Positions 39,736-64,000 of a stretch of 64,000 nucleotides of DNA are shown one piece after another; the first letter of the stretch is position 1; each line of letters starts with the position of its first letter. The position numbers and the translations under genes were made by a program. Source of the DNA: Thiothrix unzii (lineage in GTDB: Bacteria; Pseudomonadota; Gammaproteobacteria; Thiotrichales; Thiotrichaceae); NCBI RefSeq assembly GCF_017901175.1, contig NZ_CP072793.1, positions 1,054,001 to 1,118,000 of the forward strand. The letters run 5' to 3'. The notes beneath the pieces were generated by a model, which was not told the origin of the DNA, did not search any database, and was given only the letters and a program-made list of their open reading frames with translations.

Positions 39736-40638
39736 ATGTGGGATTATTCAGAAAAGGTACAAGACCATTTTTTCAACCCGCGTAACGCTGGTGCAGTCGC
39801 ACAAGCCAATGCCACTGGCGATGTGGGTTCACTCAGTTGCGGCGACGCGCTGCGCTTGACCCTCAAGGTCAACCCCGAAACCGACATTATCGAAGATGCG
39901 GGTTTTCAGACGTTTGGCTGTGGTTCGGCGGTTGCCTCCAGCTCTGCGCTGACCGAAATGGTCAAGGGCATGACGGTGGATGATGCGCTGAAAATTTCCA
40001 ACCAAGACATCGCCGACTACCTCGACGGTTTGCCGCCGGAAAAGATGCACTGCTCGGTGATGGGGCGCGAAGCCTTGCAAGCCGCCGTTGCTAATTACCG
40101 TGGCGAAGAGTGGAAAGACGACCACGAAGAAGGCGCGTTAATCTGCAAATGCTTCGCGGTGGATGCGGTGTTGATCGAAGAAACCATTCGTGCAAACAAC
40201 CTCAGCACGGTGGAAGAAGTCACCTTCTACACCAAAGCCGGTGGCGGTTGTTCCGCGTGTTTTGAAGGCATCGAAGAAATCCTCAACAAGGTTTTAGCCG
40301 AACCCGAATTTGCCGCCGCCGTAGAGACGCAAAATCTTGCGTCTCTACCCCCAACACCACCCACTGAATCGGCTAAAAAACCATTGACCAACCTGCAACG
40401 GATGCGCCGCATCGAACACACGCTGGAAGCGATCCGCCCGCAACTGCAAGCCGACCGAGGCGACATCGAACTGGTGGAAGTCGATTTCGACAAGAAAATC
40501 GCCTTCGTCAACCTGAGCGGCGCGTGTTCCGGTTGCCAGATGGCTGCGGCTACTTTGGGCGGCGTGCAACAGCGCGTCATGGAAGATTTGGGTGAATTCA
40601 TCCGCGTATTGCCTGCGACTGAAATGGGCAAGTTTTAA
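39736..40638 (+). CDS. nifU: Iron-sulfur scaffold protein NifU
   Basis: NifU assembles clusters for nitrogenase from NifS-derived sulfur. Three domains are present: an IscU-like scaffold (cysteines in [18 protein letters not shown] and MHCSVMG), a central 2Fe-2S domain (ICKCFAVDA and [10 protein letters not shown]) and a C-terminal Nfu domain with the CSGC motif ([16 protein letters not shown]). The linker before the Nfu domain contains a 28-bp palindrome read as VETQNLASL at about residues 196-204. nifS begins 11 bp later. Confidence 0.96.
40321..40348. repeat. 28-bp palindromic element inside nifU
   Basis: The arms GTAGAGACGCAA and TTGCGTCTCTAC form a near-perfect palindrome of 28 bp. Three further copies are at 48068, 51163 and 63677. 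It is read in frame in the linker between the central and Nfu domains of NifU. Confidence 0.9.
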
Positions 40639-40649
40639 GGAGTTGTGTG

Positions 40650-41867
40650 ATGAGTGAAGGTATTTATCTCGATAACAATGCGACTACGATGGTGTCGCCG
40701 GAAGTGGTGCAAGCCATGCTGCCGTATTTCACCGAGCAGTTCGGCAACCCGTCTTCCATCCACCAGTTTGGCAACAAGGTCGGGCTGGCGATTAAAGCTG
40801 CTCGCAAGCAGGTGCAAAAGCTGCTGGGTGCGGAACACGATTCCGAGATCGTTTTCACCTCGTGCGGCACCGAATCCGATTCCACCGCGATCCTCTCCGC
40901 CCTCAAAGCGCAGCCGGAACGCAAGGAAATCATCACCACCGTGGTTGAGCATCCTGCGATCCTGACCCTGTGCGAAAATCTGGAAAAAGACGGCTACACC
41001 GTGCATTACCTTAAGGTGGACGGCAAAGGACGGTTGGATCTGGATGAATACGCCAAGCTGCTGACCGACAACGTGGCGATTGTGTCCGCGATGTGGGCGA
41101 ACAACGAAAGCGGCACGTATTTCCCGGTGGTGGAAATGGCTGAAATGGCGAACGCGGCGGGCATCATGTTCCACACCGATGCGGTGCAGGCGGTCGGCAA
41201 AATTCCGATGAGTTTGAAAGACACCAAGATCGACATGCTGTCAGTGTCTGGGCACAAATTGCACGCGCCCAAAGGCATTGGTGTGCTGTATTTGCGCCGG
41301 GGTACACGCTTCCGTCCACTGTTGCGCGGTGGGCATCAGGAACGTGGACGGCGTGCGGGCACGGAAAATGCGGCTTCCATCGTCGCACTCGGCAAAGCGG
41401 CGGAAATGGCGATGGAACACATGGAGCATGAAAACATTTGCGTGCGTGCCATGCGTGACCGCCTCAAGGAAGGTTTGCTGGCTGCCATCCCCAACTGTTT
41501 CGTGACCGGCGACCCGGACAATTGTTTGCCGAATACGCTCAATATCGCGTTTGAATACATCGAAGGCGAAGCGATTTTGCTGATGCTCAACAAGCAAGGC
41601 ATCGCGGCTTCCAGCGGTTCGGCATGTACGTCTGGCTCACTTGAACCGTCGCATGTGATGCGGGCAATGGGCATTCCTTATACGGCTGCACATGGCACGA
41701 TCCGCTTCTCGCTGTCGCGCTACAACAATATGCCCGAGATCGAGAAAGTCATCGCCGCTGTTCCGCCGATTATTGCGCAATTGCGCAAGCTGTCGCCGTA
41801 TTGGGATGCTGCCAATAATGTGCCAGTGGAAGAACCGGAAAAGGCGTTTGCTCCGGCGTATGCCTAA
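40650..41867 (+). CDS. nifS: Cysteine desulfurase NifS
   Basis: NifS is the PLP enzyme that supplies sulfur to NifU. The 405-residue protein has the N-terminal YLDNNATT, the PLP lysine in SVSGHKLHAPKG and the persulfide cysteine in SSGSACTSGSLEPSHV. The ATG at 40650 is preferred to the GTG just before it, given AAGGAG at 40637. It follows nifU closely, and nifZ comes after a small C/G-rich repeat. Confidence 0.96.
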   Translation: MSEGIYLDNNATTMVSPEVVQAMLPYFTEQFGNPSSIHQFGNKVGLAIKAARKQVQKLLGAEHDSEIVFTSCGTESDSTAILSALKAQPERKEIITTVVEHPAILTLCENLEKDGYTVHYLKVDGKGRLDLDEYAKLLTDNVAIVSAMWANNESGTYFPVVEMAEMANAAGIMFHTDAVQAVGKIPMSLKDTKIDMLSVSGHKLHAPKGIGVLYLRRGTRFRPLLRGGHQERGRRAGTENAASIVALGKAAEMAMEHMEHENICVRAMRDRLKEGLLAAIPNCFVTGDPDNCLPNTLNIAFEYIEGEAILLMLNKQGIAASSGSACTSGSLEPSHVMRAMGIPYTAAHGTIRFSLSRYNNMPEIEKVIAAVPPIIAQLRKLSPYWDAANNVPVEEPEKAFAPAYA

Positions 41868-41870
41868 AGA

Positions 41871-41910
41871 CCCTCACCCCCTAGCCCCCTCTCCCAGAGG
41901 TAGAGGGGGT
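41871..41910. repeat. C/G-rich interspersed repeat
   Basis: A block starting CCCTCACCCCCTAGCCCC and ending in TAGAGGGGGTG can form an imperfect hairpin. It resembles the elements at 34106-34214. It separates nifS from nifZ. Confidence 0.5.
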
Positions 41911-41939
41911 GTAAGAGATTGTTTTGTATCGGAGATGAC

Positions 41940-42194
41940 ATGGATATTGCTCAAATTCAACCCGGTGACATGGTGTTTGCGGCTGCCGACTTGTTCAGTG
42001 ATGGCGAAATTCCGGGCTACGCCGAAGGTGCGCTGGTCGTCAAAGCGGGTACTCGCGGCGTGCTGATCAATACCGGGCATTATGAGGAATACCCGGAGGA
42101 TACGTTTTATCTGGTGCAGTTTGAGGATGAGAGTGGGACGTTGGGGCTTTCGTTGGGGTGTTGGGCGGAGGAGTTGGCGACTGAAGCATCTTGA
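41940..42194 (+). CDS. nifZ: NifZ-like protein
   Basis: NifZ helps form the second P-cluster of the MoFe protein. This 84-residue protein has the expected small-barrel pattern: QPGDMVFAAADLFSDG, AGTRGVLINTGHYEEYP, YLVQFED and the ending LGCWAEELA. The ATG at 41940 is chosen over a TTG-type start 21 bp upstream because the family begins at this point. It is the last gene of the nifU operon. Confidence 0.75.
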   Translation: MDIAQIQPGDMVFAAADLFSDGEIPGYAEGALVVKAGTRGVLINTGHYEEYPEDTFYLVQFEDESGTLGLSLGCWAEELATEAS

Positions 42195-42219
42195 TACGCC
42201 TCTTCCAATTCCAACACCT

Positions 42220-42510
42220 TCATCCCAACCGCTCGTGTGTTACTGCTGGATCACGCCGACAATCCAGTACTGCATAAACCCTGACAACATCATTCTCCAC
42301 ACGATAGTACACCGCAAACGGAAAACGCTTGGCTAACAGCCGGTTGAAACCAAAATGGATGGGGTGGATGCCTGCGTAAATCTGGAGGGATTCAAGATCA
42401 GCCAGCAAGGAATCAACGAAGTAGTCACCCAATCCGGCTTGTTGGGCATCATAAAAAGCAAAGCCGTCAACCAAATCGGCTTCGGCATCGGGATGTAGTT
42501 CAATTCTCAT
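42220..42510 (-). CDS. RelE/ParE-family toxin
   Basis: This 96-residue protein fits the RelE/ParE fold: RIELHPDAEADLVDGFAFYDAQ at the N-terminus, a central RLLAKRFPFAVYYRVENDVVRVYAVLDCRRDP. ParE members poison gyrase and RelE members cut mRNA; the sequence does not decide between them. Its ATG overlaps the stop of the upstream antitoxin by 4 bp. The pair lies between nifZ and an ABC-F gene. Confidence 0.82.
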   Translation of the reverse strand: MRIELHPDAEADLVDGFAFYDAQQAGLGDYFVDSLLADLESLQIYAGIHPIHFGFNRLLAKRFPFAVYYRVENDVVRVYAVLDCRRDPAVTHERLG

Positions 42511-42740
42511 GGAGCAGTCGGGCGGCGCAGACGTTGTTTGACTTCATCCAATGGGCGGAAAGCCACCGCGCCATTTTCCGCAGCAGCCAATCTGGATCGT
42601 AATAATTCACCATGCCATGTCGGGGATGCAAAATCAGCGTTCTTCTGCGTCAGACTTTCCCATACCCGTTCAATCAGTGCCAATTTATCCGCCAGTGTCA
42701 TGCGCTCTAGTGGTAATGTATCCAGTGACCATGCAATCAT
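42507..42740 (-). CDS. Addiction-module antitoxin (TIGR02574-like)
   Basis: This 77-residue protein matches the small antitoxins that accompany ParE-like toxins: LPLERMTLADKLALIERVWESL at the N-terminus and EVKQRLRR near the end. The open frame extends upstream to 43046, antisense to the ABC-F gene, so the ATG at 42740 is the sensible start. The stop overlaps the toxin start (ATGA). Confidence 0.75.
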   Translation of the reverse strand: MIAWSLDTLPLERMTLADKLALIERVWESLTQKNADFASPTWHGELLRSRLAAAENGAVAFRPLDEVKQRLRRPTAP

Positions 42741-42864
42741 GTTGCTTTCCAGAATTATCCAAAAATGATGGTTGTAGCTTACTCCAAAGCACAACACTGA
42801 TGCAAAATAGCTGCTTGAACGGAAAAGTTTGCCGCTACATATTTTCCGTGTTTTGGAGTTCCTT

Positions 42865-44436
42865 ATGACACATGTAGTCTGCCAGTTTTCCCAGTTAACC
42901 CAACAGTTTGATACCAAAACGGTATTTTCCGGGCTTTCCTCCACCCTGACCGACGGCTTGACCGGATTGGTCGGACGCAATGGGCAAGGCAAATCGGTCT
43001 TGCTTGCCCTGCTCGCACAAGATTTCCCACCCACTAGCGGCAGCATTCGCTGGCTTGTGCCGTTCTATTGGGTGCGGCAACTGCAACGCCTGCAAGGTTT
43101 GAATCTGGCGGATGCCCTCGGCGTTGGCGCGTTGTATGACAGTTTCGAGCGCATCCAGTCCGGTGAAGCCAGCGCGGACGATTTTGCGCAGGTTGAAGAT
43201 CGTTGGCATCTGCCCGCCTTGTGGGAACAGGAACTGCATGAAGCGGGTCTGGATTTGCCCCTGTCTACGCCCGTCCAACATCTCAGCGGCGGCGAACAAA
43301 CCCGGCTGGCACTGTGCCGTGCGTTCTTGCAACTTGATCACTACCTGCTGCTGGACGAACCCAGCAACCATCTGGATACCGCAGGTCGGCAATGGCTATT
43401 GGCAAAGCTGACCCAACACCCGGCGGGCGCATTGGTTGCCACCCACGACCGCGAATTGCTGCAACAGGTGGAACGGATTCTGGAGCTGGATCAGCATGGC
43501 TTGAACGAATACGGCGGCAATTACGCCATCTACCACACCATCCGCGATGCCCAAGTTGCCGCCACCGAACAGCAACTGGCAACACTCAAACGCAACCGCC
43601 AGCAACAAAAACTGGAACAACAAGCGGCGTTGGAAAAATCCGCCCATCGCCGCAAACAGGGCGAACGCCAACGCCATTCCGGCTCACAAAGCAAACTGCT
43701 GATGGATGCGCAACAGGATCGCTCAGAAAACACACTTTCCAAACTCAAGCAACAACACCAGCAACGCGCCGAACAACTGGCAACCGAATTGGGCGCTACC
43801 CAAACCCGGCTGGAAATCATCAAACCGCAAACCTTACGCTCTGCCCCCGAAGCCGCGCATCACAGCCTGTGCCTGCACCTTTCCGAACTGGTGTTGCCTT
43901 ACGTACACCATGCGCCGCTGACCCTCACCGTACAGCAGGGCGAACGCTGGCACATCCAGGGCAGGAATGGCTCTGGCAAATCCACCCTGCTGCGCGTCAT
44001 TGCAGGTCTGGAACAACCCATTTCAGGTGTTTGCGAGGTGCATGGACGTTGCGTGTATCTGGATCAGCACTTCAGCCTGCTAGATGAAAACGCATCCGCG
44101 CTGACCAACCTGCAACGCCTGCACCCTGACATCAGTGAAACCCTACTACGTACCGAATTGGCGGGGTTACGAATGCGCGGCGATAAGGCATTGCAACCGC
44201 TGAAGGAACTGAGCGGCGGTGAACGCCTGAAAGTAGCTTTACTGGCTGTGCTAGTGGGTGAGAATGCCCCGACCTTGTTGTTGCTGGATGAACCCGACAA
44301 CCATCTGGATCTGGACTCGCGCTTATTGCTGGAACAAACCTTGGCAGACTATCCCGGTGCATTGCTGGTGGTGTCGCACGATCCGGCGTTTATTGCCGCC
44401 CTGAATATTTCGGCAAGCCTCACATTAACCGCTTGA
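42865..44436 (+). CDS. ABC-F family ATPase
   Basis: This is a 523-residue protein with two ABC domains and no transmembrane segment. Domain 1 has Walker A GLVGRNGQGKSV and LSGGEQTRLALCRAFL with LLLDEPSNHLDT; domain 2 has IQGRNGSGKSTLL and LSGGERLKVALLAVL with LLLDEPDNHLDL. A charged coiled-coil linker rich in Gln/Lys (about residues 250-320) separates them. ABC-F proteins act on ribosomes. The ATG at 42865 is used. Its 3' end overlaps the convergent hrpB by 17 bp. Confidence 0.9.
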   Translation: MTHVVCQFSQLTQQFDTKTVFSGLSSTLTDGLTGLVGRNGQGKSVLLALLAQDFPPTSGSIRWLVPFYWVRQLQRLQGLNLADALGVGALYDSFERIQSGEASADDFAQVEDRWHLPALWEQELHEAGLDLPLSTPVQHLSGGEQTRLALCRAFLQLDHYLLLDEPSNHLDTAGRQWLLAKLTQHPAGALVATHDRELLQQVERILELDQHGLNEYGGNYAIYHTIRDAQVAATEQQLATLKRNRQQQKLEQQAALEKSAHRRKQGERQRHSGSQSKLLMDAQQDRSENTLSKLKQQHQQRAEQLATELGATQTRLEIIKPQTLRSAPEAAHHSLCLHLSELVLPYVHHAPLTLTVQQGERWHIQGRNGSGKSTLLRVIAGLEQPISGVCEVHGRCVYLDQHFSLLDENASALTNLQRLHPDISETLLRTELAGLRMRGDKALQPLKELSGGERLKVALLAVLVGENAPTLLLLDEPDNHLDLDSRLLLEQTLADYPGALLVVSHDPAFIAALNISASLTLTA

Positions 44437-46975
44437 CCTTGCGCGTAGCAATTGCCTGCAACGGATCATCCGGCCACGGATGCTTGGGGTAACGCCCCTT
44501 CATGTCCTTTTTCACCTCATGGTAGGACGTGCGCCAAAACCCCGCCAAATCCTGCGTAATCTGCAACGGCCTGCCCGCCGGAGATAGCAAATGCACCAGC
44601 AATGCCACCCTGCCATTGGCAATGGTCGGCGTTTGTTGGCAACCAAACATTTCCTGCAATTTCACCGCCAACACTGGCGACGATTGGCTGTAGTCGATGG
44701 CGATGGAATGCCCGGAAGGCACTTCAAGCGATTTAGGGGCAAGCTGTTCGAGACGTTGTTGCATGTCCCACGGCAATAGACTGCTGAGAATAGTGGTCAA
44801 ATCGAGCTTTTTGAAATCACCCAGCACATTAACTGCATTTAGATACGGGGCAAGCCACTCTTCCAGTGTTGCCAGCAAGTGGGCGCGGCTGACATCAGGC
44901 CATGCTCGTTCCGCTTCGACACCTCGCAAAAGATTGATTCTTGCGCACCATTGTTCCTGTTCCGCCTGCCACGGCAATACATCCAGCCCTTGCTTGCGGA
45001 TGAAACTGATCAGGGCGGTGCTTTTGGCTTCACTCGGTACGGTTTGCAGGGCTTTGCGTTGTAACACCAACGCGCCGATTTTGTGCTGTGCTTCGGCGAT
45101 GAAACGCCCCGCTTTGTTATCCCATTCCACCACGGTTTGCCCGCGCACCTGATCGGCTAATGCGCTGGCAAACAGCTTATCATCCAGTGCGGCAGCGGAG
45201 CGGATGGTGTCGCTGCTTTTGCCCACCATGCTGCTGACCTCCGCAATCGCCAGCCATGCCTGATTGCCGAGCGCGTGTTTATCGGGCAAATCCGCACTGC
45301 GCCCGTTGGCAAGTTGGTAGCCGCCGGAATGCCGCCGCCGTGCAATACGATCGGGGTAGGCACAGGCCAGCAAATAGCCATTGATTTGCGTGGCGGGGAG
45401 CAAAAAGCTCACACCACTTTCTGGCAGTTTCTGGCTGCGGATTTGTTCCATAAATTGGTTTGCCAGTTGGCGGGTACGCTGTAACCAGCCCTGTTGCGGG
45501 TATGGACAACGGCTTGTGCCTGTCAGTATTTCCAGCGATTGGCTAATGTCTGGATTGTCTTGGCTGAACGGATTGCGCTCGGAAAGCAGGCTGGCAAGGT
45601 TGGCAGCGGCGTTCAGGTGTCCGGCTTGTGCGCCACAAATCAGCAGGTGGGCGAGGCGCGGATGCACCGGCAGATTGCACATCACTTGCCCGTGCGCCGT
45701 CAGTAGCGTGGTTTTGCCCTTGCGTTCAATCGCGCCGAGCGTTTCCAGCAAGTCCAGTGCTTGTTGCCAAAGGCCGGAAGGCGGCACATCCAGCCAGCGC
45801 AGTTCCGCCGGGTCATCCACACCCCATTGCAGCAGTTGCAAGGCGAGTGGGGCGAGGTCGGCGCGTAAGATTTCGGGGGTATTGTGTGCAGCGAGTTGTT
45901 CTTGCTGGCTTTCCGTCCACAGTCGATAGCACATGCCGGGGGCAAGACGACCTGCACGTCCGGCACGTTGGGTGCTGGAGGCGCGAGAAATGCGTGTGGT
46001 GTGTAAGCCGGTCATGCCGGTTCCGGGGTCGAAACGGGCTTCGCGCACCAGACCGGAATCGACCACCACATCCACGCCTTCGATGGTCAGGCTGGTTTCG
46101 GCGATATTGGTTGCCAGCACCACCTTGCGTTGGTCCGGGTTGGCAAGCGGGGCAATGGCTTGTTGCTGTTCGTCCAGCGTGAGGTTGCCGTACATGGGGC
46201 GCAAATGCACGCCACGGATGCGGCGTTCCACCAGCCATTCACCGAGTGCTTCGGTGGTGCGGTGAATTTCGCCTTGACCGGGCAGAAAAGCGAGGATGCT
46301 GCTGTCAGGGTTGTCGCTCAAGGCTTGCCGCAGGGTGGCGACCATGCGTTCGGCAATGCGTTCGTTGGGTTTGGCAGCTTGCCCGTAGCGGATGTTTACT
46401 GGGTAAGTACGACCTGCGCTGCGTACTACTGGAGCATCATCCAGTAAATTGGCAATCGCAACGCTATCCAAGGTGGCGGACATGACCAGCAGTTTCAGCG
46501 GATTGCTGTCGTCGCGGAACAGCTCGCGCCCTTTCAAACACAGGCTGAGGGCGAGGTCGGAATCGAGATTGCGTTCGTGGAATTCGTCGAAAATGACCAA
46601 GCCAACGCCGTCCAGCGACGGGTCTTGCTGTAATTGCCGAGTGAGGATGCCTTCGGTAATAACTTCAATGCGTGTCTGGTGACTGATTTTATGGTCGAGG
46701 CGCATCCGATAGCCGACGGTTTGGCCTGCGCTTTCGTTTAGCAGGCTTGCCATGCGGTGCGCGGCATTTTTGGCGGCAATACGGCGCGATTCGAGCATGA
46801 GGATTTTTTTGTCAAAAAGCCACGGCTCATCCAACAAGGCCAATGGCACGCGGGTGGTTTTGCCCGCGCCCGGTGGGGCTTCCAGCACGACTTCGTGGTG
46901 TTCACGCAGGGCTTGCTTGAGGTCGTCAAGGACGGCATCAATGGGGAGGAGCGGTTCGTTACATAGCGTTTTCAT
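44420..46975 (-). CDS. hrpB: ATP-dependent helicase HrpB
   Basis: This is a DExH-box helicase of 851 residues. Walker A is APPGAGKTTRVPLALL near residue 32, the DExH box is VIFDEFHERNLDSDLAL, and the later helicase motifs (SATLDSVAI, FLPGQGEI, TNIAETSLTIEGV, QRAGRAGR) follow in order. The C-terminal HrpB-specific region ends with YPKHPWPDDPLQA. The ATG at 46975 is preferred; its start overlaps the SIR2-like gene by 17 bp. Confidence 0.93.
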   Translation of the reverse strand: MKTLCNEPLLPIDAVLDDLKQALREHHEVVLEAPPGAGKTTRVPLALLDEPWLFDKKILMLESRRIAAKNAAHRMASLLNESAGQTVGYRMRLDHKISHQTRIEVITEGILTRQLQQDPSLDGVGLVIFDEFHERNLDSDLALSLCLKGRELFRDDSNPLKLLVMSATLDSVAIANLLDDAPVVRSAGRTYPVNIRYGQAAKPNERIAERMVATLRQALSDNPDSSILAFLPGQGEIHRTTEALGEWLVERRIRGVHLRPMYGNLTLDEQQQAIAPLANPDQRKVVLATNIAETSLTIEGVDVVVDSGLVREARFDPGTGMTGLHTTRISRASSTQRAGRAGRLAPGMCYRLWTESQQEQLAAHNTPEILRADLAPLALQLLQWGVDDPAELRWLDVPPSGLWQQALDLLETLGAIERKGKTTLLTAHGQVMCNLPVHPRLAHLLICGAQAGHLNAAANLASLLSERNPFSQDNPDISQSLEILTGTSRCPYPQQGWLQRTRQLANQFMEQIRSQKLPESGVSFLLPATQINGYLLACAYPDRIARRRHSGGYQLANGRSADLPDKHALGNQAWLAIAEVSSMVGKSSDTIRSAAALDDKLFASALADQVRGQTVVEWDNKAGRFIAEAQHKIGALVLQRKALQTVPSEAKSTALISFIRKQGLDVLPWQAEQEQWCARINLLRGVEAERAWPDVSRAHLLATLEEWLAPYLNAVNVLGDFKKLDLTTILSSLLPWDMQQRLEQLAPKSLEVPSGHSIAIDYSQSSPVLAVKLQEMFGCQQTPTIANGRVALLVHLLSPAGRPLQITQDLAGFWRTSYHEVKKDMKGRYPKHPWPDDPLQAIATRKVKRLM

Positions 46976-47834: not shown

Positions 47835-47877
47835 GGTGATTCCTCGTGATATTTGTCAATGGATTAAGGTTTACGTA

Positions 47878-49479
47878 TCAGATTTGCCGCACCTGAATAT
47901 TCAGTATCTGGATGCGGTAGGCAATTTGCCGTGGGGTCATATTCAGCAACCGCGCCGCCTTGGCTTGCACCCAACCCGCTTCTTCCAGTGCGGCAATCAC
48001 GCGCTCACGTTCGTCCAGATCCGGGTCATTCAAATCCGCCTTCGGTTTGCCGCTACCTGCACCTCCCGTAGAGACGCAAAATTTTGCGTCTCTACCACCA
48101 CCACAGCCATCATCAGCCGGAAACTGGCTATCCAGCCCCGTCAAACGAATGACCTGCTGGTCAATATGCCCATCGGCGCTGAGGATCGCGGCACGTTCCA
48201 TGCAATTTTCCAACTCGCGCACATTGCCCGGCCAGCCGTGGTGCATGAGCGCACGAATCGCGCCGTCCCCAATATCCAGCGGTCGCCCTTGCTTGTTGCT
48301 GATTTTATTGACCAGAAAGCGGGCAAGGTCAGGGATGTCTTCCAGCCGTTCGCGTAACGGCGGCATGATGATGGGCATCACATTGAGGCGGTAATACAAG
48401 TCTTCGCGGAATTCGCCTGCCCGCACTTCCTGTTCCAGATTGCGGTTGGTGGCGGCAATCACGCGTACATCGACCTTGAGAGTGCGCGTACCGCCGACGC
48501 GCTCGAATTCGCCTTCCTGCAAGACCCGTAGTAATTTGGCTTGGAACGCGGGGGTGATTTCGCCGATTTCATCCAGAAACAGCGTGCCGCCATCGGCTTG
48601 CTCAAAACGCCCCTTACGCTGACTGACCGCACCAGTAAACGCACCTTTTTCGTGCCCGAACAGTTCGGATTCCAACAAATTGTCCGGCAAAGCGGCGCAG
48701 TTGAGTTTGATGAAAGCATTGTTGGCACGCGGCGAATGGTAGTGAATGGCGTTGGCAATCAGCTCTTTACCCGTCCCGGATTCACCGCGAATGAGTACGG
48801 TGGTGTTCCACTTGGCAACTTGCCGCGCTTGGTCGAACACCACCTGCATGACGCGGGTATGCCCAATCAGGTTGGCGAAACCGGATTCGCCTTTGACCTT
48901 GCGGCGCAACGAGTCGCGTTCTTTTTGCAGTTCCTGTTTGTCGCTGGCGACTTCGTTGGCAAGGACTACATTTTGCCCGATTAGGTTGCCGATCATTTCA
49001 AGGAAGCGGCGGCGTTCGCCCAGTAAGTGCAATTCAGCGGGGGGTTGTGCAGCTAATACGCCGACGATTTCATCGCCACGGGCGCGGATCGGTACGGCAA
49101 TAAGCGGCAACACCGGATTGTATACGCCGAGTTTGTCGAGGAAACGCGGTTCGTCGGCTAACTTGCGGATAATCAGCGGCTTATCCATTTCAATCGCCAG
49201 CCCCATGATGCCTTCGCCCGCACGGTAGCGCACATTTTCCACGGTAAGTTTGTCGGCACGGTGCAATTCCAGCAGCAGCAAATCACCGCTGTCACCGTCG
49301 AGTAGGCTGACCATGCCGTGTTCGAGCTGGCCTTCTTCGTGCAGTACGCGCAACACTTCGCGCAAGGTTTCCTTGAGGTTGAGGGAACGGCTTAACACCT
49401 TGCTGACGGCGTAAATACAGGCAAGTTCGTCTTCCAGCAAGTTGAGGGTTTGTTGCAATTGCGCATTGTCGTGGCTCAT
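47878..49479 (-). CDS. nifA: Nif-specific transcriptional activator NifA
   Basis: NifA activates sigma-54 promoters of the nif genes. An N-terminal GAF domain (about residues 20-170) is followed by the AAA+ domain with Walker [13 protein letters not shown], the sigma-54 contact loop GAFTGA and LFLDEIGEI, and a C-terminal Fis-type helix-turn-helix ([18 protein letters not shown]). The linker at about residues 462-471 contains the 28-bp palindrome, read as [10 protein letters not shown]. The ATG at 49479 overlaps the nifL stop by 4 bp. Confidence 0.96.
48068..48095. repeat. 28-bp palindromic element inside nifA
   Basis: This is a perfect palindrome with the arms GTAGAGACGCAAAA and TTTTGCGTCTCTAC. 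It is translated in the linker between the AAA+ and DNA-binding domains and brings in one cysteine. Confidence 0.92.
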
Positions 49480-51044
49480 TCCATCCCCCCGTTGCTGGCT
49501 TTTAGGGGTAGGTTGACGCGGATACGGCAACCGTTGGGGTAATCGGGGTCGATGCTGATACTGCCGTCGTGGTTGTTGACGATTTCTTGCGCCATGCACA
49601 AGCCCATGCCGACATTGCCGTTGCCGCGTTTCCAGCCGCTGTGGAAGGGTTCAAACACTTTTAAGCGTTGCGCGGGCGGAATGCCAATGCCGTTGTCGGT
49701 GATTTCCACGCTAATGCTGTCGTCGTGCAAACGGGTGTGAATACGCAATTCGCGGTAGACGCGCCCGGCTTCGTGCAGGGCGAGCAAGGCATTGTCGAGC
49801 AGGTAATTGAACATACGCCGCAATGAGGCTTCATTACCCATGAGCGCAGGCAGGACAGGTTCAGGTCGCCAATCGACGACCACGCCTTCGGAAAGCATCC
49901 GGTCAGTCGCAATAATCAGCAAGTCTTTGAGTACCTGATTAATGTTGACCAAGGAATACGTGCCGTGTTCGGCTCTGGGGATTGCCATGCGCATGGCATT
50001 GATGGCGCGGTAAGACGATTCCAGCACTTGCTGCAACACGGGGTACAGGGCTTCGGTGGAAGAGGGCGGCATGACCAGGGCGGCTTGGATCACGTTGAGC
50101 GGAGTTTCCAGTTGGAAAATCGCACCTGCCAAGGTTTCGCGGATGCTGCTGGTGAGTTCTTGTTCCGCCATTTGCACTTTGAGGTGTTGGATGCGGGCAC
50201 GTTCCAGCTCGGCTTTGCGGGTGGTGATGTCGGTGGCAACTAGCAACAAATAATGTCCGCCACTGTTGGTTAGGGCGAAATAATTTTTGGCAGCATCGTC
50301 GAGTTCTTCGACGTGGATGCCGGAGAGGGTGAACCAGCATTCGTTGCCATTGGGCGCGTCGAAACGGACTTGCACGTCGTGGAAATTGTCGAAGGTTTCA
50401 CCCTCTAGTGTGGGCAGCCGATCCTTGAGCGCATCGAGGAATAGATGGACGGGTTCGATTGTACCGAATTCGACTTTGAGGCGTTTGTAGGCTTTGTTAT
50501 CCATCAGGATATTGCGGTTGCTGTCGAGCAATACCACGATGGCCGGGGCGAGGTCGAAAATGGTGTCGGAAAGGATTTTTTGGTGTTTGAGTTGCTGTTC
50601 CAGATTGTGAATGACCGATATGTCGCGGTGCATTCCGAGGAAGTTGGTGATATTACGCTGGGCATCCAACACGGGGGCAACGGTGACTTCGGCGAGGTAG
50701 CGTTGGCCCGCTTTGTTGCGGTTGATGAGTGTGCCGCGCCATTCTTTGCCGCTTTGGATGGTGCGCCACAGGGTGCGGTAAAGTTCCAGCGGGGTGGTTT
50801 TGCAGGACAGTACCGATTCGTTTTGTCCGCAAATCTCGTCGCGGGAATAGCCGGTTAATTCCTCAAACGCGCTGTTGACGTAGAGGATATTGGCGCGGGT
50901 ATCGGTGATGGAAATGGCAACAGGGGCTTGCTCCACGGTTTCGAGGATGGCTTGCAGCGACAGGCCGGGGGTCACATGCTCGAATCCGGCAATGTGCGAG
51001 AGGTCGGCGTAGTGTTCGGCGAATGAGGTGCTTGGCTTGTGCAT
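49476..51044 (-). CDS. nifL: Nitrogen fixation regulator NifL
   Basis: NifL inhibits NifA in response to oxygen and fixed nitrogen. The 522-residue protein has an N-terminal PAS domain that would bind FAD (APVAISITDTRANILYVNSAFEELTGYSRDEI), a second PAS region, a helical segment (LAGAIFQLETPLNVIQAAL) and a GHKL ATPase domain (NYLLDNALLALHEA, EITDNGIGIPP, GNVGMGLCMAQEIV). The ATG at 51044 lies just after its sigma-54 promoter; the longer frame from 51137 runs across that promoter. It overlaps nifA by 4 bp. Confidence 0.92.
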   Translation of the reverse strand: MHKPSTSFAEHYADLSHIAGFEHVTPGLSLQAILETVEQAPVAISITDTRANILYVNSAFEELTGYSRDEICGQNESVLSCKTTPLELYRTLWRTIQSGKEWRGTLINRNKAGQRYLAEVTVAPVLDAQRNITNFLGMHRDISVIHNLEQQLKHQKILSDTIFDLAPAIVVLLDSNRNILMDNKAYKRLKVEFGTIEPVHLFLDALKDRLPTLEGETFDNFHDVQVRFDAPNGNECWFTLSGIHVEELDDAAKNYFALTNSGGHYLLLVATDITTRKAELERARIQHLKVQMAEQELTSSIRETLAGAIFQLETPLNVIQAALVMPPSSTEALYPVLQQVLESSYRAINAMRMAIPRAEHGTYSLVNINQVLKDLLIIATDRMLSEGVVVDWRPEPVLPALMGNEASLRRMFNYLLDNALLALHEAGRVYRELRIHTRLHDDSISVEITDNGIGIPPAQRLKVFEPFHSGWKRGNGNVGMGLCMAQEIVNNHDGSISIDPDYPNGCRIRVNLPLKASNGGME

Positions 51045-51076
51045 AACGGTTTCCACGGTTGCTGTGTTTATTGCGG

Positions 51077-51092
51077 TGCAATAGGCGTGCCA
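51077..51092 (-). promoter_or_regulatory. Sigma-54 promoter of nifLA
   Basis: Read on the minus strand, TGGCACGCCTATTGCA is a perfect -24/-12 match 33 bp before the nifL ATG. It makes nifLA likely to be activated by NifA itself or by NtrC. Confidence 0.8.
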
Positions 51093-51162
51093 GCGTGTTG
51101 GCGGGAATGGGGTAATACGCTGGGTGGTGTGGTACATGTGTAGATTGTGTAGATGCGCGTGT

Positions 51163-51190
51163 GTAGAGACGCAAGATTTTGCGTCTCTAC
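51163..51190. repeat. 28-bp palindromic element between nifL and rnfA
   Basis: The arms GTAGAGACGCAAG and TTTGCGTCTCTAC (51163-51190) form the only intergenic copy of this element in the window, between the two divergent sigma-54 promoters. Confidence 0.9.
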
Positions 51191-51215
51191 GGTGGTGGGT
51201 GCGGAGGCGAATGGT

Positions 51216-51231
51216 TGTCGCAAACCCGACA
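51216..51231. promoter_or_regulatory. NifA-type activator site shared by nifL and rnfA
   Basis: An exact TGT-N10-ACA motif lies 74 bp from the rnfA promoter and about 124 bp from the nifL promoter. It is the only such site seen in the 313-bp gap, which otherwise holds the two promoters and the palindrome. Confidence 0.65.
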
Positions 51232-51305
51232 ATTCCCCACCTTTGTCACAAACCACACGCCGCAAAATCCACCCAAAACCCACGCCCCGCAAGGCTTGCA
51301 GAGGC

Positions 51306-51321
51306 TGGCACGCTCCCTGCA
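51306..51321 (+). promoter_or_regulatory. Sigma-54 promoter of the rnf operon
   Basis: TGGCACGCTCCCTGCA fits the -24/-12 consensus with one change in the -12 region. It is 36 bp upstream of the rnfA ATG. Confidence 0.78.
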
Positions 51322-51357
51322 TTGCCTTTGCCACAGATGATTCTCAGGGAATGCGCA

Positions 51358-51933
51358 ATGGAATATTTCATGATCTTGCTCGGTACGGTACTGGTGAACA
51401 ACGTGGTGTTGGTCAAGTTCCTAGGGCTTTGCCCGTTCATGGGCGTTTCCAAGCAGATTGATTCGGCGATTGGCATGGGCATGGCTACCACCTTCGTACT
51501 GACGCTGGCTTCGGTGGCGGGCTGGATGCTGGAGCATTGGGTGTTGCAGCCGTTTGATCTGGGTTTCCTGCGCATCCTGTCGTTCATTCTGGTGATTGCG
51601 GCGACGGTGCAGTTTACCGAGATGGTGATTAAGAAAGTGTCGCCTGCGTTGTATCAGGTGTTGGGGATTTTCTTGCCGCTGATTACCACCAATTGCGCGG
51701 TACTGGGCGTGGCGCTGCTGAATGTGCAAGAACAGCACAGTTTTCTGCAAACCTTGCTGTATGGCTTTGGGTCGGCGGTGGGGTTTACCTTGGTGCTGGT
51801 GATTTTTGCGGGTTTGCGGGAACGGTTGGCGTTGGCACAAGTGCCAGCGGCGTTTGGCGGGTTGCCGATTGCGTTCATTGTTGCCGGGTTGTTGTCGCTG
51901 GCCTTTATGGGCTTTGCGGGGCTGGCGAGCTAA
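51358..51933 (+). CDS. rnfA: Electron transport complex subunit RnfA
   Basis: Rnf complexes in diazotrophs use the proton or sodium gradient to drive electrons from NADH to ferredoxin for nitrogenase. RnfA is a membrane subunit; this 191-residue protein has six hydrophobic segments and the family motifs [18 protein letters not shown] and [14 protein letters not shown], with two cysteines (one in each) that bind an iron-sulfur cluster at the RnfA/E interface. The ATG at 51358 is chosen because the promoter lies just upstream. rnfB follows after 18 bp. Confidence 0.95.
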
Positions 51934-51951
51934 TAGGAAAGGGAGTAGAGC

Positions 51952-56533: not shown

Positions 56534-56551
56534 TGCAACAAGGAGTAGGTA

Positions 56552-56881: not shown

Positions 56882-56883
56882 CC

Positions 56884-57264: not shown

Positions 57265-57408
57265 CTTGTTGCCGATCCATGTCGATTGCATCACAGCGAT
57301 TGAGGGTTGTTTTTGATTGGTGAAGAGTCATCGTCGATTAGGCAAAACCATATACTGACTGCTAGACTAAAAACTCGTCTAATTTAATCTACTGGGCAGA
57401 TTCACATC

Positions 57409-58020: not shown

Positions 58021-58075
58021 TGCATGAGCATTTAACCACGTTTGAATGCACCCCATAATCTGCTATAAATCGCTC

Positions 58076-58465: not shown

Positions 58466-59599
58466 GGGAACCTCTAAAAACCCGGCATATTGCAGTGGTT
58501 AGCGTTGGCCTATCGGCGTTTTGTTAGAAAAATACCAATCCATCTCAATTTTCAGGTTGTTTTCCCGCATTTTTGCGGCTTTTTCAGGGATTTTCCCGTC
58601 AAATGGGCACAACTCCACCCTCTTTGAGCGAACAAAGCCGACGCAGGTTATACACGGTTGCCTTGATGCTGAGGCCGAATACTGCCCGTGCCAACCCAAT
58701 GCTGCGGATGGCTTTGCCACCCATCGCACAGATTGACCCAAACACATGCTCAACCCGTGCGCGGTGTCTAGCGATGCGGGTGTTGCGGCGCTTCTGGCAG
58801 TCGGATTGCGGCTTGCCTTTTTTGGCTTTGTGCTGGATGTGTAACCGCCAGCTACCTTGGTTGAGGCGTTGTTCACGGGATTGGTCTTCATAACCTTTGT
58901 CCGCCCATACGTTACGGCTGGTGTTGGCTCGGTCAAGCACCGCTTCAAAATGGTTGGTGTCATGTTCTTTGGCAGTGCTGATGTGGCGTTTGCGGATGAG
59001 TTTGTATTTCCGATCGGCACTGATACTGAGTTTGTAGCCGTGGTAGCTTTTGCCGTGTTTCTTCGTCCAGCTTGCTTCCGTATCCTTTTGGCGACGTTGG
59101 GCAGGTGTCCAGTCAGCGGGTGTTGCCGCTTGTTCCAACAGCGCTTTTTCTTCTTTGTGGAAATGTTGTTTAGGGGCTTCCACTAGTGTGGCATCGACGA
59201 TTTGACCACCACGGGCAATAAAACCGTGCTGTTGTAACTGCCGTTGGACGGCATCAAACAGCGCATCCGCACCACCTGCCGCGCTGATCCGTTCACGGAA
59301 TACCCACAAAGTGTTGGCATCCGGGATCGTGCTGGAGTGCCGCAGGCCACAGAAGCGTTGGAACGACAGTCGGTCAAGTAATTGGTATTCCAATGCCTCG
59401 TCCGACAGGTTGTACAGGTGTTGCAATACCAAGATCCGTACCATCAGTTCCGTAGGATAGGGCGGACGACCTCCTCGCTTGTCACTTGGGCGTGGGGCGA
59501 TGTGGTCGTATTCCGCGACAATTATCTTGTCCGGTCGGCGACAATTACGGTGGCCGGTTGAGTTGGTAGACTCAGGCGTATTTCTCTAAGGAGAAACCG

Positions 59600-61117
59600 A
59601 TGCCTGGATTCCCGACCAATACTCAACAATACAGGCTCTATATGAAACTCCGAGAAGCAGGACTCACGCAAGTGAGTGCCGCCGTTAAGGCTGGCCTTTC
59701 CGAACGGACAGGCCGCCGTCTTGAACAACCCAGCCATGTCCCACCCGGCGGACAGCCAGCCCCACGAAGCTGGCGTACCCGTACTGACCCACTGGCGGGT
59801 GTTTGGGAAAGTGAGCTGGTTCCCTTACTGCAAGACAACCCTGAACTGTTGCCCAAGACCTTGTGGGAATACGTGTGCCAGCGTTACCCCGACCAGTATG
59901 ACAGCAAGGTGGAACGCACCTTACAACGCCGCATCAAGGCGTGGAAGCTGCAACACGGCAAACCGCTGGAGGTGATGTTTTTGCAGCACCATGAACCGGG
60001 GCAGCAAGGTATTTCTGACTTTACCCAACTCAAGCCCAACGGGATCACGCTCAAGGGGGAAGCGTTTGCCCACCGCTTTTACCATTACCGGCTGGTCTAC
60101 AGCGGCTGGTGCCACGTGAAGGTCATTTGTGGTGGCGAGAGCTATGAGGCATTGGCGACCGGCTTGCAGGATGCATGGTGGCGCAGCGGCGGCACACCCC
60201 GCGAGCACCGTACCGACAGCCTGAGTGCGGCCTACAACAATTTGGTTGAAGAACAGACCCTGACCCGACGTTACGCGGCGTTGTGCCGCCATTACCACGT
60301 CAAGGCCAGCCGCAACAACAAGGGCGTTGCCCATGAAAACGGGGCAGTGGAAGCTGCCCACGGGCATTTTAAACGCCGGGTGGCACAAGCATTACTGTTG
60401 CGGGGTTCCGCCGATTTTGACGCACTGGCGGATTACCAAGCGTTTGTGGATCAGGTGGTGTTGGTCATCAACAAGGCGTGTCGGACACGCTTTGAGGAGG
60501 AGAAGCCGCATTTGCGCCCGTTACCCCGGCAACGCACCAATGACTATGCAGAACACCCGGTTATGGTTTCCAGCAGCAGTACCATCCGCTTCAAACGCAT
60601 CACTTACACCGTCCCTTCCCAGTGGGTGGGTACGCCATTGTTGTTGCTGGCCTATGACGAACGGCTGGAGTTGTACCACAGCACCGTCCATTTGCTGACA
60701 CTGCCGCGCTTGTATGCACCCAAAGGCGGCAATGGGCGTTGCGTCAATTACCGCCATGTGATTGATTCGTTGGTGCGTAAGCCTCAAGCGTTCCGCTGTT
60801 CACAAATCCGCGATGACCTATTGCCTAACGCCGACTACAAGGCCATCTGGGCGCAGGTGGATGCCACTTTGCCACCCACAGAGGCCAGCCGTTACCTAGT
60901 CAAGCTGCTGTATTTGGCTGCCCAGTCAGGTCAAGAGTTGGCCATCGGGCAGTTTGTCATGCAACACCTGCACAGCTCCGCGTTGCCCAGCATTGCGCAG
61001 TGCCGTGAGCGGTTCGCCCCGGAAACCCCCAGCGGTGTCCCGCTGATCCAGTCGCATACTGTGCCATTGGCAGCTTACGATGCCCTCTTGGGTGTTACAG
61101 GGGTTGCCCATGGCTAG
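59600..61117 (+). CDS. istA: IS21 transposase IstA
   Basis: This is a 505-residue DDE recombinase. An N-terminal helix-turn-helix (LREAGLTQVSAAVKAGLSERTGRRL) is followed by the integrase core: the first Asp in GQQGISDFTQL, the second near PREHRTDSLSAAYNN and the Glu in NKGVAHENGAVEAAHGH. The frame is intact. It overlaps istB by 8 bp, typical for IS21. Confidence 0.95.
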   Translation: MPGFPTNTQQYRLYMKLREAGLTQVSAAVKAGLSERTGRRLEQPSHVPPGGQPAPRSWRTRTDPLAGVWESELVPLLQDNPELLPKTLWEYVCQRYPDQYDSKVERTLQRRIKAWKLQHGKPLEVMFLQHHEPGQQGISDFTQLKPNGITLKGEAFAHRFYHYRLVYSGWCHVKVICGGESYEALATGLQDAWWRSGGTPREHRTDSLSAAYNNLVEEQTLTRRYAALCRHYHVKASRNNKGVAHENGAVEAAHGHFKRRVAQALLLRGSADFDALADYQAFVDQVVLVINKACRTRFEEEKPHLRPLPRQRTNDYAEHPVMVSSSSTIRFKRITYTVPSQWVGTPLLLLAYDERLELYHSTVHLLTLPRLYAPKGGNGRCVNYRHVIDSLVRKPQAFRCSQIRDDLLPNADYKAIWAQVDATLPPTEASRYLVKLLYLAAQSGQELAIGQFVMQHLHSSALPSIAQCRERFAPETPSGVPLIQSHTVPLAAYDALLGVTGVAHG

Positions 61118-61862
61118 CTTGGAAGCACTGCCCATCTTGTTGAAGGAACTGCGCTTGTCCACCATCGGCAAGTGTTGGGAAGCACTCGCGCAACAGGCGT
61201 TGGACGGGCAATGGTTGCCACAACAATACCTTGCCGCATTGTGTGAGGAAGAAGTCAATGAACGCTACCAACAACGCCTGAAACGTTACTTGCACGAAGC
61301 CCAGTTACCCGCAGGCAAACGCCTGTCACACTTTGACTTTAGCGCAGTCCACGGCATCAAGGCCAACCAAGTCAAGGCATTGGTCGAGCAACCCCAATGG
61401 GTCAAACAGGCGCATAACCTGCTGCTGTTCGGCCCCAGTGGCATCGGCAAAACCCATCTGGCGTGCGGCATCGCCGCAGGCTTGCTGGAAAAGGGCTTCC
61501 GCGCCAAATTCTTCAGTGCCACCGCTCTCGTCCAGCAATTGCAGCAGGCTAAGGAAAAACTGTTGCTGGCAGAGATGTTGCTGCGCCTTGACCGTTACGA
61601 AGTGTTGCTGCTGGATGACATCGGCTATGTCAAAAAGAGCAACCAAGAAACCCAAGTGCTGTTTGAACTGATTGCCCACCGCTATGAAACTGGCTCACTC
61701 ATCATCACCTCCAACCATCCCTTCAGCGAATGGGGGCAAATATTTGAGGACAACATGATGACCGTCGCCGCCATTGATCGGCTCGTCCACCATGCCACCA
61801 TTTTGGAATGCCAAGGGGAGAGTTACCGCCGACAATCTGCCATGAACAGGAGGCAAAACTAA
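61110..61862 (+). CDS. istB: IS21 helper ATPase IstB
   Basis: IstB is an AAA+ ATPase that helps IstA select targets. The 250-residue protein has Walker A FGPSGIGKTHLA and Walker B LLLDDIGYV, followed by LIITSNHPFSEW. The ATG at 61110 is preferred to a further upstream start within istA. The frame is intact, so the IS21 copy could be mobile. Confidence 0.94.
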   Translation: MASLEALPILLKELRLSTIGKCWEALAQQALDGQWLPQQYLAALCEEEVNERYQQRLKRYLHEAQLPAGKRLSHFDFSAVHGIKANQVKALVEQPQWVKQAHNLLLFGPSGIGKTHLACGIAAGLLEKGFRAKFFSATALVQQLQQAKEKLLLAEMLLRLDRYEVLLLDDIGYVKKSNQETQVLFELIAHRYETGSLIITSNHPFSEWGQIFEDNMMTVAAIDRLVHHATILECQGESYRRQSAMNRRQN

Positions 61863-62149
61863 CCCACTTTCACACGACAACTAACCGGACAAGATAGTTG
61901 TCGCCGACCGGACAAAGTAATTGACGCGGCATAGTGGTCGATTTCTGCTGCCAAGGCGACAAAGTTGACGTGCTGGTTCAGCGTGGACAGCAAGTCGCCC
62001 TTGCGGTCGAGTTTCTGTTCACGCTCTTCGGCGGCAAACAGACTGGTTTTGATGGCACTTTTCTTGGGCATGGCTAGTAACGGGGTCGTTGGCTCAGGTG
62101 AGCATTTTCTCACATTTGTACGGGTATCAGTGGGTTTTTAGAGGTTCCC

Positions 62150-63175
62150 TTAATTTTTCCGGCTATTCAGAATACGTTGAACATTGCTGGCAATGATTTG
62201 TGCGCTATTGCTTGGTGTATAGGAAAAATTTTCCAAATCGGTAGTCTTATTCAATAATCTGGCGTGACCTTTTTTTATTAGAAAAGAGACAACTTGATTA
62301 TGGGTAGCTTCCACAATATCGGGATCATGGAAAATATAAACGGGTTTGCCGCTACTCGCAGCTTCACTGCACATGGATATAGAATCCGCTGTCACCACGA
62401 GATAATCCACACTTCCTAAAATGCCGAAATAAGGATTATCTCCAGTCGTTTGTTTTGGGTCATACAAATAATAAGGAACGCTGATTTGTGAACATAGCGC
62501 ATCCTGACTTTCTTGTGATGTCCTCGCAGATACACTGATGATTAACGTGGATTTCATGCGTGTGGCGATTTCGTTGATAGTTTTACCCAGATTTTTCGCA
62601 ATGGCGGGTGAAAAAATCCGGCGTTTATCCCCGACATCGCCGCCCATCAGTAAGCCGATAACAGTGCCTTTATTAATGAATGGCGCAAAGTCTTTAGCCC
62701 AGCGCGATTTTGCTTGACGCAATTGTTTATCCCTTATGCGGTTGGCGACGGTTTCACACAATAAAAGATTAGGGATGTTGTCGTTATTGTGATATGGGTA
62801 GCTGACGATAATATCGGTATTATCAATATCCGTTTGTTGGGCTTTAATCTGTAAGCCGCGTACCGGCGGACGTAAAGCAACCACGACGGTTTTACCACCG
62901 GATAACGTTTTAATAACCTGCATATATGGAATATGAAAGCACGGCCCGATTAATACATCAGGCCATTTCAACGCATCCGGCCTGATAAGGTTTGCTCGCA
63001 ATAATCGCGCTTTCACTTGTTCCGGTGTACAAAATTCACTGGGCATCTCCAATTCTGACCAAGTATCGCTCAGGTGTTCGGCGATGCCGATGCGTGCGTT
63101 GGTATCTCCCGCCCGCGTGGTTTTGGTGATCCAGACCAGCGGCGGCGGGAGGGTTTCGGCAGTGATGGCAGTCAT
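62150..63175 (-). CDS. ELM1-like protein (putative glycosyltransferase-fold)
   Basis: The 341-residue protein matches the ELM1/DUF1022 family: VWITKTTRAGDTNARIGIAEHL at the start, a central LLMGGDVGDKRR and the nucleotide-sugar-like motif LVVTADSISMCSEAASSGKPVYIF near residue 270. The family has the fold of GT-B glycosyltransferases and is linked in other bacteria to cell-envelope polysaccharides. Its stop codon overlaps the TTAA repeat of the adjacent IS5-family element. Confidence 0.75.
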   Translation of the reverse strand: MTAITAETLPPPLVWITKTTRAGDTNARIGIAEHLSDTWSELEMPSEFCTPEQVKARLLRANLIRPDALKWPDVLIGPCFHIPYMQVIKTLSGGKTVVVALRPPVRGLQIKAQQTDIDNTDIIVSYPYHNNDNIPNLLLCETVANRIRDKQLRQAKSRWAKDFAPFINKGTVIGLLMGGDVGDKRRIFSPAIAKNLGKTINEIATRMKSTLIISVSARTSQESQDALCSQISVPYYLYDPKQTTGDNPYFGILGSVDYLVVTADSISMCSEAASSGKPVYIFHDPDIVEATHNQVVSFLIKKGHARLLNKTTDLENFSYTPSNSAQIIASNVQRILNSRKN

Positions 63176-63216
63176 ACGGGCGTTTCTGCGGGTGAAAATG
63201 GATTAGAAAGTATACA

Positions 63217-64000
63217 TTAACCCACAGTGGTTTGAGGTATTAATCCAGATTCTGATTCTTCCGCCACGCTGTCTGAGGTGTCGGGTAAACGGTATTCCAG
63301 CACAACCTCAATTTCGCCCTTCACTACGTCTTCTGTCACCACACACCGCGCCACATTTTCTTCCGATGGCAAGGTAAACATCAACTTGCGCAACAAGGTT
63401 TCCAGCACGCCACGTAAACCGCGTGCACCCGTGCCGTGGGCAATCGCCTTTTGTGCAATCGCCCGCAGTGCATCGTTGGTGAACTCCAACTCCGCATTAT
63501 CCAGCGCGAACAGTTGTTGGTATTGCTTAATCAGGGCGTTTTGTGGTTCGGTGAGGATGCGTACCAGCGCGTCTTCGTCGAGTTCGTGCAGCGCAGTGAT
63601 GACCGGGAAACGTCCGATGAATTCGGGGATCAGCCCGAAATGGCGCAAGTCTTCCGGTTGCACTTCGCCCAATACCATAGAGACGCAAAATTTTGCGTCT
63701 CTACCATCGGTCGGATTGCCGTGTGCGGCGTGGAAACCGATGCCTTTTGCGCCCGGTTTCAGGCGTTTTTCCAGCAGCTTTTCCAGACCGGAGAATGCGC
63801 CGCCGACGATGAACAGGATATTGCGGGTGTCGAGCATTACCGGGGCTTGGTCTTTGCGGCCTTTGGCGGGGACTTTGACGGTCGTGCCTTCTACCAGCTT
63901 GAGCAGGGCTTGTTGCACGCCTTCGCCGCCGACATCGCGGGTTCCGTGCGAGTTTTCACCGCTGCGGGCAAGTTTGTCGATTTCGTCGATGTAAACGATA
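63217..64000 (-). CDS. clpX: ATP-dependent Clp protease ATP-binding subunit ClpX (C-terminal part)
   Basis: ClpX unfolds substrates for the ClpP protease. The gene runs off the window end; what is visible begins with Walker [11 protein letters not shown], followed by [16 protein letters not shown], the sensor region [24 protein letters not shown] and [14 protein letters not shown]. Between IGFHAAHG and [11 protein letters not shown], a normally short variable loop, there is the 28-bp palindrome translated as GRDAKFCVS. The C-terminus ends in a longer tail than usual. Confidence 0.93.
63677..63704. repeat. 28-bp palindromic element inside clpX
   Basis: The arms ATAGAGACGCAAAA and TTTTGCGTCTCTAC form this copy; only its first base differs from the copy in nifA. 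It is read in frame within a variable loop of ClpX. Confidence 0.9.

Follow-up and report, generated by a model that had tools for sequence, protein, structure and literature searches.

A palindrome of 28 bp in Thiothrix unzii is the subject of this analysis. It occurs four times in a 64,000-nt stretch of contig NZ_CP072793.1 (positions 1,054,001 to 1,118,000, hereafter the window), where a first-pass annotation had noticed it from the sequence alone. Its pattern, GTAGAGACGC-N8-GCGTCTCTAC, consists of two arms and an eight-base core. Our findings show that the element is real, bears the marks of a mobile element, lies in frame in protein-coding genes and was gained or lost within the genus. 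We propose that it probably is a double-foot repetitive extragenic palindromic (REP) element, non-autonomous and bearing a GTAG foot on each strand, of a kind acted on by the subclass 2.4 REP-associated tyrosine transposases (RAYT, also TnpAREP), which are single-strand HUH transposases. The kind of element is known; its genic record here is unusually broad and testable. The copies in the window and their host genes are:

40321..40348, double-foot palindrome in nifU, between the Fer2_BFD and C-terminal NifU domains, peptide VETQNLASL
39736..40638, + strand, nifU (NifU_N, Fer2_BFD and NifU domains), from open reading frame (ORF) and domains
48068..48095, double-foot palindrome in nifA, between AAA+ lid and HTH, peptide GRDAKFCVS
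47878..49599, - strand, nifA (GAF, Sigma54_activat, HTH_8), true start possibly further in
51163..51190, double-foot palindrome, intergenic, between a kinase-like ORF and an rsxA-like gene
63677..63704, double-foot palindrome with one mismatch, in frame in the clpX loop after the GIGF motif
63217..64000, - strand, clpX, cut by the window edge (whole ORF of 537 aa in L183)

The four palindromes with common arms that the first-pass annotation had reported were recovered: the pattern is exact in the first three, and the fourth deviates at one base, its first. No match occurred in 100 shuffles of the window, compared with the four in the real one. Genome-wide (3.72 Mb), 36 copies were found at up to 3 mismatches and 0 in the reversed control, and this count, which the annotation had called for, excludes chance matches together with the shuffles. 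Arms are perfect in 32 of the 36 copies, with the core AAGATTTT in either orientation in 27 and AAAATTTT in five; the arms of four copies are changed at one or two bases. The GTAG at one end of the palindrome pairs with CTAC, its complement, at the opposite end. Two lone arms, at 32730 and 27935, are consistent with chance, and no clear extension into a longer hidden element emerged when the 27 perfect-armed copies were oriented on their asymmetric core (GGTG on the right side in 6 of the 27). Among 40 genomes scanned, the exact-arm pattern is present in ten, all of the same genus (32 copies in T. unzii; 37, 34, 11, 9, 9, 8, 5, 4 and 2 in the others), and absent from 6 of the 16 genus members and from all 24 genomes outside the genus.

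Twelve of the 36 copies are genic and fall in NifU, NifA, ClpX, a NifX-like protein, DnaX, NuoG, E3 (lipoyl dehydrogenase), E2 (acyltransferase, three copies), a TIR-domain ATPase and a ModA-like solute-binding protein. Nine of them lie between Pfam domains (NifU, NifA, DnaX, NuoG, E3, the three of E2 and the TIR ATPase), while the ClpX copy is in a loop within the AAA domain, the NifX-like copy at a domain edge and the ModA-like copy in the C-terminal tail. For the window, domain limits and relatives agree with the sites first described, namely the NifU linker, the NifA linker and a variable ClpX loop, and all three copies are indeed in frame. The tally derives from a mechanical count of copies inside ORFs of at least 150 aa (13 of 36, versus 78% of random positions in the same loci, p 7e-8), minus two probably spurious overlaps (L007 and L196) and plus the ModA-like C-terminal copy; copy 2260238, close to the end of a 143-aa ORF that has no Pfam match, was left out. 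Non-genic copies are the majority and often lie within about 25 bases of an ORF end. The 51163 copy was counted as intergenic because it has the start of the kinase-like ORF 49476-51137 (- strand) on one side and the rsxA-like gene on the other, both names being our own reading; a longer version of the rsxA frame (51124-51933) does run through it. All three copies of E2 (L197, 2295-3638) share a single linker.

The palindrome is readable in two of three frames, the third being blocked by TAG. All 12 genic copies are in a readable frame, seven as VETQ[ND][LF]ASL, five as RDA[KR][FS]CVS and none in the TAG frame, in a count that would miss truncated genes. The two peptides first described, VETQNLASL and GRDAKFCVS, do come from two frames of one element; their scope exceeds the three genes initially named.

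As the first-pass annotation had suggested, NifU, NifA and ClpX were aligned with relatives lacking the element, here within the genus, and the element is present in some members and not in others. The nifU copy is found in 2 of 11 aligned genomes, T. unzii and G001; the remaining five genus members have no full nifU match and so stand outside this alignment. Compared with the nine element-free genomes, nifU of T. unzii is longer by 21 bp in four cases and by 15 to 33 bp across all nine, and the surrounding linker is rewritten. Three of six genomes compared have the nifA copy (T. unzii, G001 and G010), and nifA without it is shorter by 39 bp in G006 and G015 and by 36 bp in G012. The clpX copy occurs in two of six genomes (T. 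unzii and G010), G001, G006, G012 and G015 having a different loop that is four residues shorter (net 12 bp more in T. unzii). The copy thereby lengthens the ClpX loop, which we take to be the loop that docks ClpP. The NifX-like copy is confined to T. unzii among five genomes, with a local gain of 33 bp, and the T. unzii protein also lacks 11 N-terminal residues. The TIR ATPase copy, too, is found in T. unzii only, where the gene is 75 bp longer than at five loci from four genomes; another insert occupies this place in G015. The nifB linker between the radical SAM and NifX-like domains contains the palindrome in G001 and G010, not in T. unzii, with a net gain of 27 bp. The NuoG copy is present in all five genomes compared and decayed in two.

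All these net length differences (12, 21, 27, 33, 36-39 and 75 bp) are multiples of three. Since element-free relatives differ by 12 to 75 bp, the inserted unit by itself does not keep the frame, and since the net sizes are multiples of three yet variable, the frame seems to be maintained by selection together with small repairs and not by the unit. The lengths gained in nifU, nifA and clpX agree with the early suggestion that insertion must have involved added or replaced bases. A fixed insertion of 30 bp (28 bp plus a 2-bp duplication), frame-safe by design, is excluded by the same net changes.

The element lies in strand-asymmetric tracts. In 32 T. unzii copies the A+C skews of the eight bases to the left and to the right are correlated (r 0.62, versus 0.09 at random positions), and the same holds for 78 copies of T. 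unzii, G001 and G010 (r 0.60 versus 0.13). ACC adjoins the foot in 29 of the 78 (about 3 expected, p 1e-21); complementary bases beside the feet are rare (2 of 78 versus 26 expected), as is to be expected from the common A+C lean. Direct flank identity of 3 bp or more is not in excess in the 78 genus copies. A strand of A and C only is unable to fold, which suits a single-strand enzyme, and it spells Thr/Pro codons when coding. At the TIR ATPase site, and there only, four of five empty alleles already read ACACCACCACC, which suggests that the A+C tract predates the insertion. Copy 221792 has flanks that lie about 264 kb apart in G001 (L283, L284), where the left flank adjoins another copy of the element; this site is possibly a rearrangement breakpoint at the palindrome.

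The double foot is a REP type of TnpAREP subclass 2.4, common in Cyanobacteria and Bacteroidetes and scattered elsewhere, and REPs of this subclass occur in frame within the tnpAREP genes, where they lie between HuH and Y (Quentin et al. 2018, PMC6006769); Table 1 of that paper equates subclass 2.4 with Bertels group 4. The Thiothrix element resembles these REPs in its GTAG/CTAC ends (5' GT[AG]G, 3' C[TC]AC), its long stem in one hairpin, its dispersal in many copies and its in-frame copies in tnpAREP genes, the latter seen in other phyla only. It differs from them in that no tnpAREP gene found in this genome carries this REP. Insertions into the linkers of nif and housekeeping genes do not appear in the parts of PMC6006769 that we drew on. 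The GTAG-tagged, intragenic REPs of Di Nocera et al. 2013 (PMC3733652) are likewise similar in their GTAG tag, occurrence in several phyla, intra-ORF copies and the argument of linker tolerance; however, the GTAG that defines those REPs is unpaired at one end, whereas here GTAG pairs with CTAC, so that the element falls outside that definition. Our literature search found no paper treating REP, linker and in-frame insertion together, which is no proof of absence from print, and a text match of the arm letters returned papers whose titles, among the matches listed, look like primer use. Among very small mobile repeats in cyanobacteria, the small dispersed repeats (SDR) of Nostoc are reportedly the subject of work by Elhai et al. 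2008.

Beyond the genus the 28-mer frame recurs: a query with ten fixed bases per arm and a free eight-base core matched at least 118 stretches of GTDB contigs. According to 80 record titles among the matches listed, these represent at least 13 lineages of about phylum rank. Most are Bacteroidota; the others are Cyanobacteria (16, filamentous included), Planctomycetota, Acidobacteriota, Chloroflexota, Spirochaetota, Desulfobacterota, Fibrobacterota, Cloacimonadota, Zixibacteria, Desantisbacteria, CPR lineages and a Methylococcales genome. Most of the free cores also form a perfect or near-perfect palindrome, the commonest being GATTAATC, AAAATTTT, ACGGCCGT and AATGCATT. With a profile of the genus RAYTs, 11 of the 118 loci listed yielded 12 RAYT ORFs or fragments, all of which hold a palindrome in the stop-to-stop frame. 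Nine have it in the loop (eight between HUH and Y and one fragment at a like place); it lies before HUH in one, in the leader in another and at the C-terminus in the last. Because the loci were chosen by the palindrome, its position within the RAYT gene is informative and its nearness to the gene is not. These copies tie the 28-mer frame to such RAYTs independently of PMC6006769. As in T. unzii, copies in ORFs of at least 150 aa are few (23 of 104 tested, out of 128 copies, versus 72% of random positions); four in-frame examples, chosen from 16 listed, are in a type IX sorting domain protein, RecG, formamidopyrimidine-DNA glycosylase and valyl-tRNA synthetase. The base T is favoured before the foot in these phyla (CTAC|A on the opposite strand; 52% of flank ends), and TnpAREP is described to cut at C|T and C|A (PMC8266576). 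In five loci picked by eye (L067, L084, L105, L112 and L140) a larger inverted repeat surrounds the copy, which occupies its loop as though a hairpin had received the insertion. Inverted flank bases, six or more, were counted at 8 of 141 copies.

T. unzii itself encodes a RAYT in the window. Its locus, and nifB, comprise:

36483..37079, - strand, RAYT/TnpAREP gene with subclass 2.4 motifs NHFH, WQ and YIENNP, the only one found in the genome
37089..37112, + strand, REP at the RAYT locus, GTAGGGGCGACC family
37147..37170, - strand, REP at the RAYT locus in opposite orientation, 2 mismatches
36415..36438, + strand, REP-like copy on the opposite flank of the RAYT gene, 3 mismatches
36736..36758, - strand, degenerate REP of the RAYT's own family, within the RAYT frame after the HUH motif, peptide NVGATGSSPI (by eye, no statistic)
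32294..33799, + strand, nifB, palindrome-free in this genome

With 198 aa and these motifs the protein fits subclass 2.4 (NH[IFV]H, WQ, YIxNNP, about 194 aa). It matches NF047646 REP_Tyr_transpos, a general model and not one of subclass 2.4, with 65.6 bits (E 4.4e-18), below the cut-off of 80, and has no Pfam match at E 0.001; a profile of its family finds the TnpArep of PDB 4er8 (E 2.8e-8). The GTAGGGGCGACC REP pattern has three genome hits at 3 mismatches, all at the RAYT locus (36415-37170), a REPtron. Since its flanking REP belongs to the GTAGGGGCGACC family, this RAYT is excluded as the cognate of the 28-bp palindrome. In G001 the GTAGGGGCGACC family occupies the intergenic site 221792, where T. 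unzii has GTAGAGACGC. Three other genus RAYTs (L351 of G010, L350 and L341 of G007) contain, directly after the HUH motif, a REP of their flanking type such as GTAGGGGCAATTCATGAATTGCCCCTAC; the core differs in each. Elsewhere in the window, adjacent insertion sequences occupy 58599-61862, with a DDE transposase ORF (DDE_Tnp_1/DUF772) and an IS21-type pair (an integrase-like ORF and IstB).

We hypothesize that the element was mobilized by an HUH enzyme, which would recognise the foot and hairpin on exposed single-stranded DNA, cut beside them and join the element into single-stranded target DNA. The A+C-rich (G+T-rich) tracts of the genus copies, incapable of self-pairing, would be a preferred target, and those within genes encode Thr/Pro- or Gly-rich linkers. 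Selection would then purge copies that break genes, sparing the intergenic ones and those in linkers or loops with a net length in multiples of three and a TAG-free frame.

Several observations weigh against our interpretation. The cognate tnpAREP was not found in the same genome, where the window RAYT is the only such gene and its REPs are of another family, and GTAGAGACGC is absent from nine genus RAYT loci, from 700 bases before to 1000 after HUH. The REP type is therefore claimed from structure and not from a resident cognate pair, and as the only RAYT of the genome carries a different REP, we infer a RAYT as the mover of this palindrome family. The cognate enzyme may have been lost, may lie outside the sampled genomes, may be too divergent for our searches, or the resident RAYT may act on a foreign REP. 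The six genus members with a subclass 2.4 RAYT have 32, 37, 34, 5, 4 and 0 exact copies, and the ten without a full one have 8, 9, 11, 9, 2 and five times 0, a weak link (p 0.06, kinship ignored); one of the six RAYTs (G011) contains TAG, another (G009) accompanies the zero, and five palindrome-bearing members lack a full RAYT of this subclass. Several genus members have RAYT-like genes of other types. A clean 28-bp empty site was sought in two directions and not found, the sites being mostly rewritten. Direct flank identity is in excess at 1 bp (40 of 78, 23 expected) and at 2 bp (17 of 78, 8 expected), the latter leaving room for a 2-bp duplication, and since close species share some of the 78 sites, these flanks are not independent. 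Finally, other phyla show a weak tract bias (r 0.12).

The lack of this REP at the nine genus RAYT loci would also be explained if the family came with a RAYT since lost, spread in an ancestor within the genus and now only decays, shuffled by recombination. Such a relic would rival recent mobility and not REP identity; it overlaps with our explanation, and we give it somewhat less than an even chance. The five genomes that hold 2-11 copies without a full subclass 2.4 RAYT agree with it, as do several copies common to two to five species, such as the partly decayed NuoG copy. However, arms are perfect in 32 of 36 copies, and the NifX-like, TIR ATPase, NifB and ClpX copies were each seen in no more than two of the genomes compared. 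The intergenic majority, often close to ORF ends, could instead suggest that a function maintains the elements, be it as hairpins for transcription or mRNA stability or as protein-binding sites, with genic copies as by-products, and other repeats do take the same intergenic sites in sister species (862677, 662972 and 221792). We consider this unlikely, because an exact copy is missing from six of the 16 genus members and the element diverges at 0.032 per site versus 0.065 in the flanks (10 copy-genome pairs from 8 copies, past an ungapped filter), which is weak evidence of conservation and no sign of strong constraint.

The first-pass annotation had compared the element to those of Rickettsia, and a palindrome that adds peptide, in frame, to existing unrelated proteins is indeed the behaviour of Rickettsia palindromic elements (RPE). 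This kinship was not borne out: RPE-4 and RPE-6 are CGTC repeats and RPE-1 is longer, according to PMC3733652, whereas the ends here are GTAG/CTAC, which excludes RPE membership. As the ends and the in-RAYT copies elsewhere are those of GTAG REPs, an RPE-type element, transferred or convergent, is very improbable. Chance palindromes, or a protein motif conserved for its function, could claim the recurrence of VETQNLASL and GRDAKFCVS and nothing else. They are refuted by the shuffles, the reversed control and the sister species, which lack the peptides at most of these sites; moreover, two frames give two different peptides and most copies are intergenic, so that we regard their probability as negligible.

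The newest point of this study is that the DnaX, E2 and E3 linkers which carry this REP hold other palindromic repeats in sister species. The DnaX linker contains this REP once in T. unzii and twice in G001, other inverted repeats in G010 (CCTCACCCCC type) and G012 (CCCCCCTTTTTCAAAGGGGGG type), and no repeat of any kind in G006. The E3 linker contains this REP in T. unzii, CCC-rich inverted repeats of the CCCTCACCCC type in G010, G012 and G015, and GAGCGAAGTCGAAGGGA in G006. The E2 linker, with its three copies in T. unzii, has CCCTCACCCC-type repeats in G010, the CCTTCCCCC type in G001 and G015, GAGCGAAGTCGAAGGGA in G006 and no evident palindrome in G012. Genome-wide counts cover two of the families and show both to be dispersed: CCCTCACCCCAACCCCTCTCCC is present in 14 of 16 genus genomes, and TTCCCTGAGCGAAGTCGAAGGGA in 7 of 16, with two of its nine G006 copies in the E3 and E2 linkers. 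In the E3 gene of G001 (L249, near nt 5742-5947) the halves lie in different frames across the repeat-bearing linker, so that either the gene looks broken or the assembly is wrong, which runs against neat frame-keeping.

We tentatively speculate, with considerable doubt, that linkers in this genus are repeatedly rebuilt from the palindromic mini-element active in each species, that tract targeting steers the elements into linkers and that the resident RAYT moves a foreign REP. Under this proposal, insertion into unstructured A+C/G+T-asymmetric DNA, which also encodes Thr/Pro/Gly linkers, would mean that target choice itself directs the element to linkers. A single 28-bp element that can be read in two frames, its dozen genic copies in one genome, sister species that have or lack it and other repeat families in the same linkers together form a compact natural experiment on mobile DNA that adds peptide to working proteins. 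As NifU, NifA, NifB and the NifX-like protein carry the palindrome in one species or another, its effects on nitrogen fixation are measurable.

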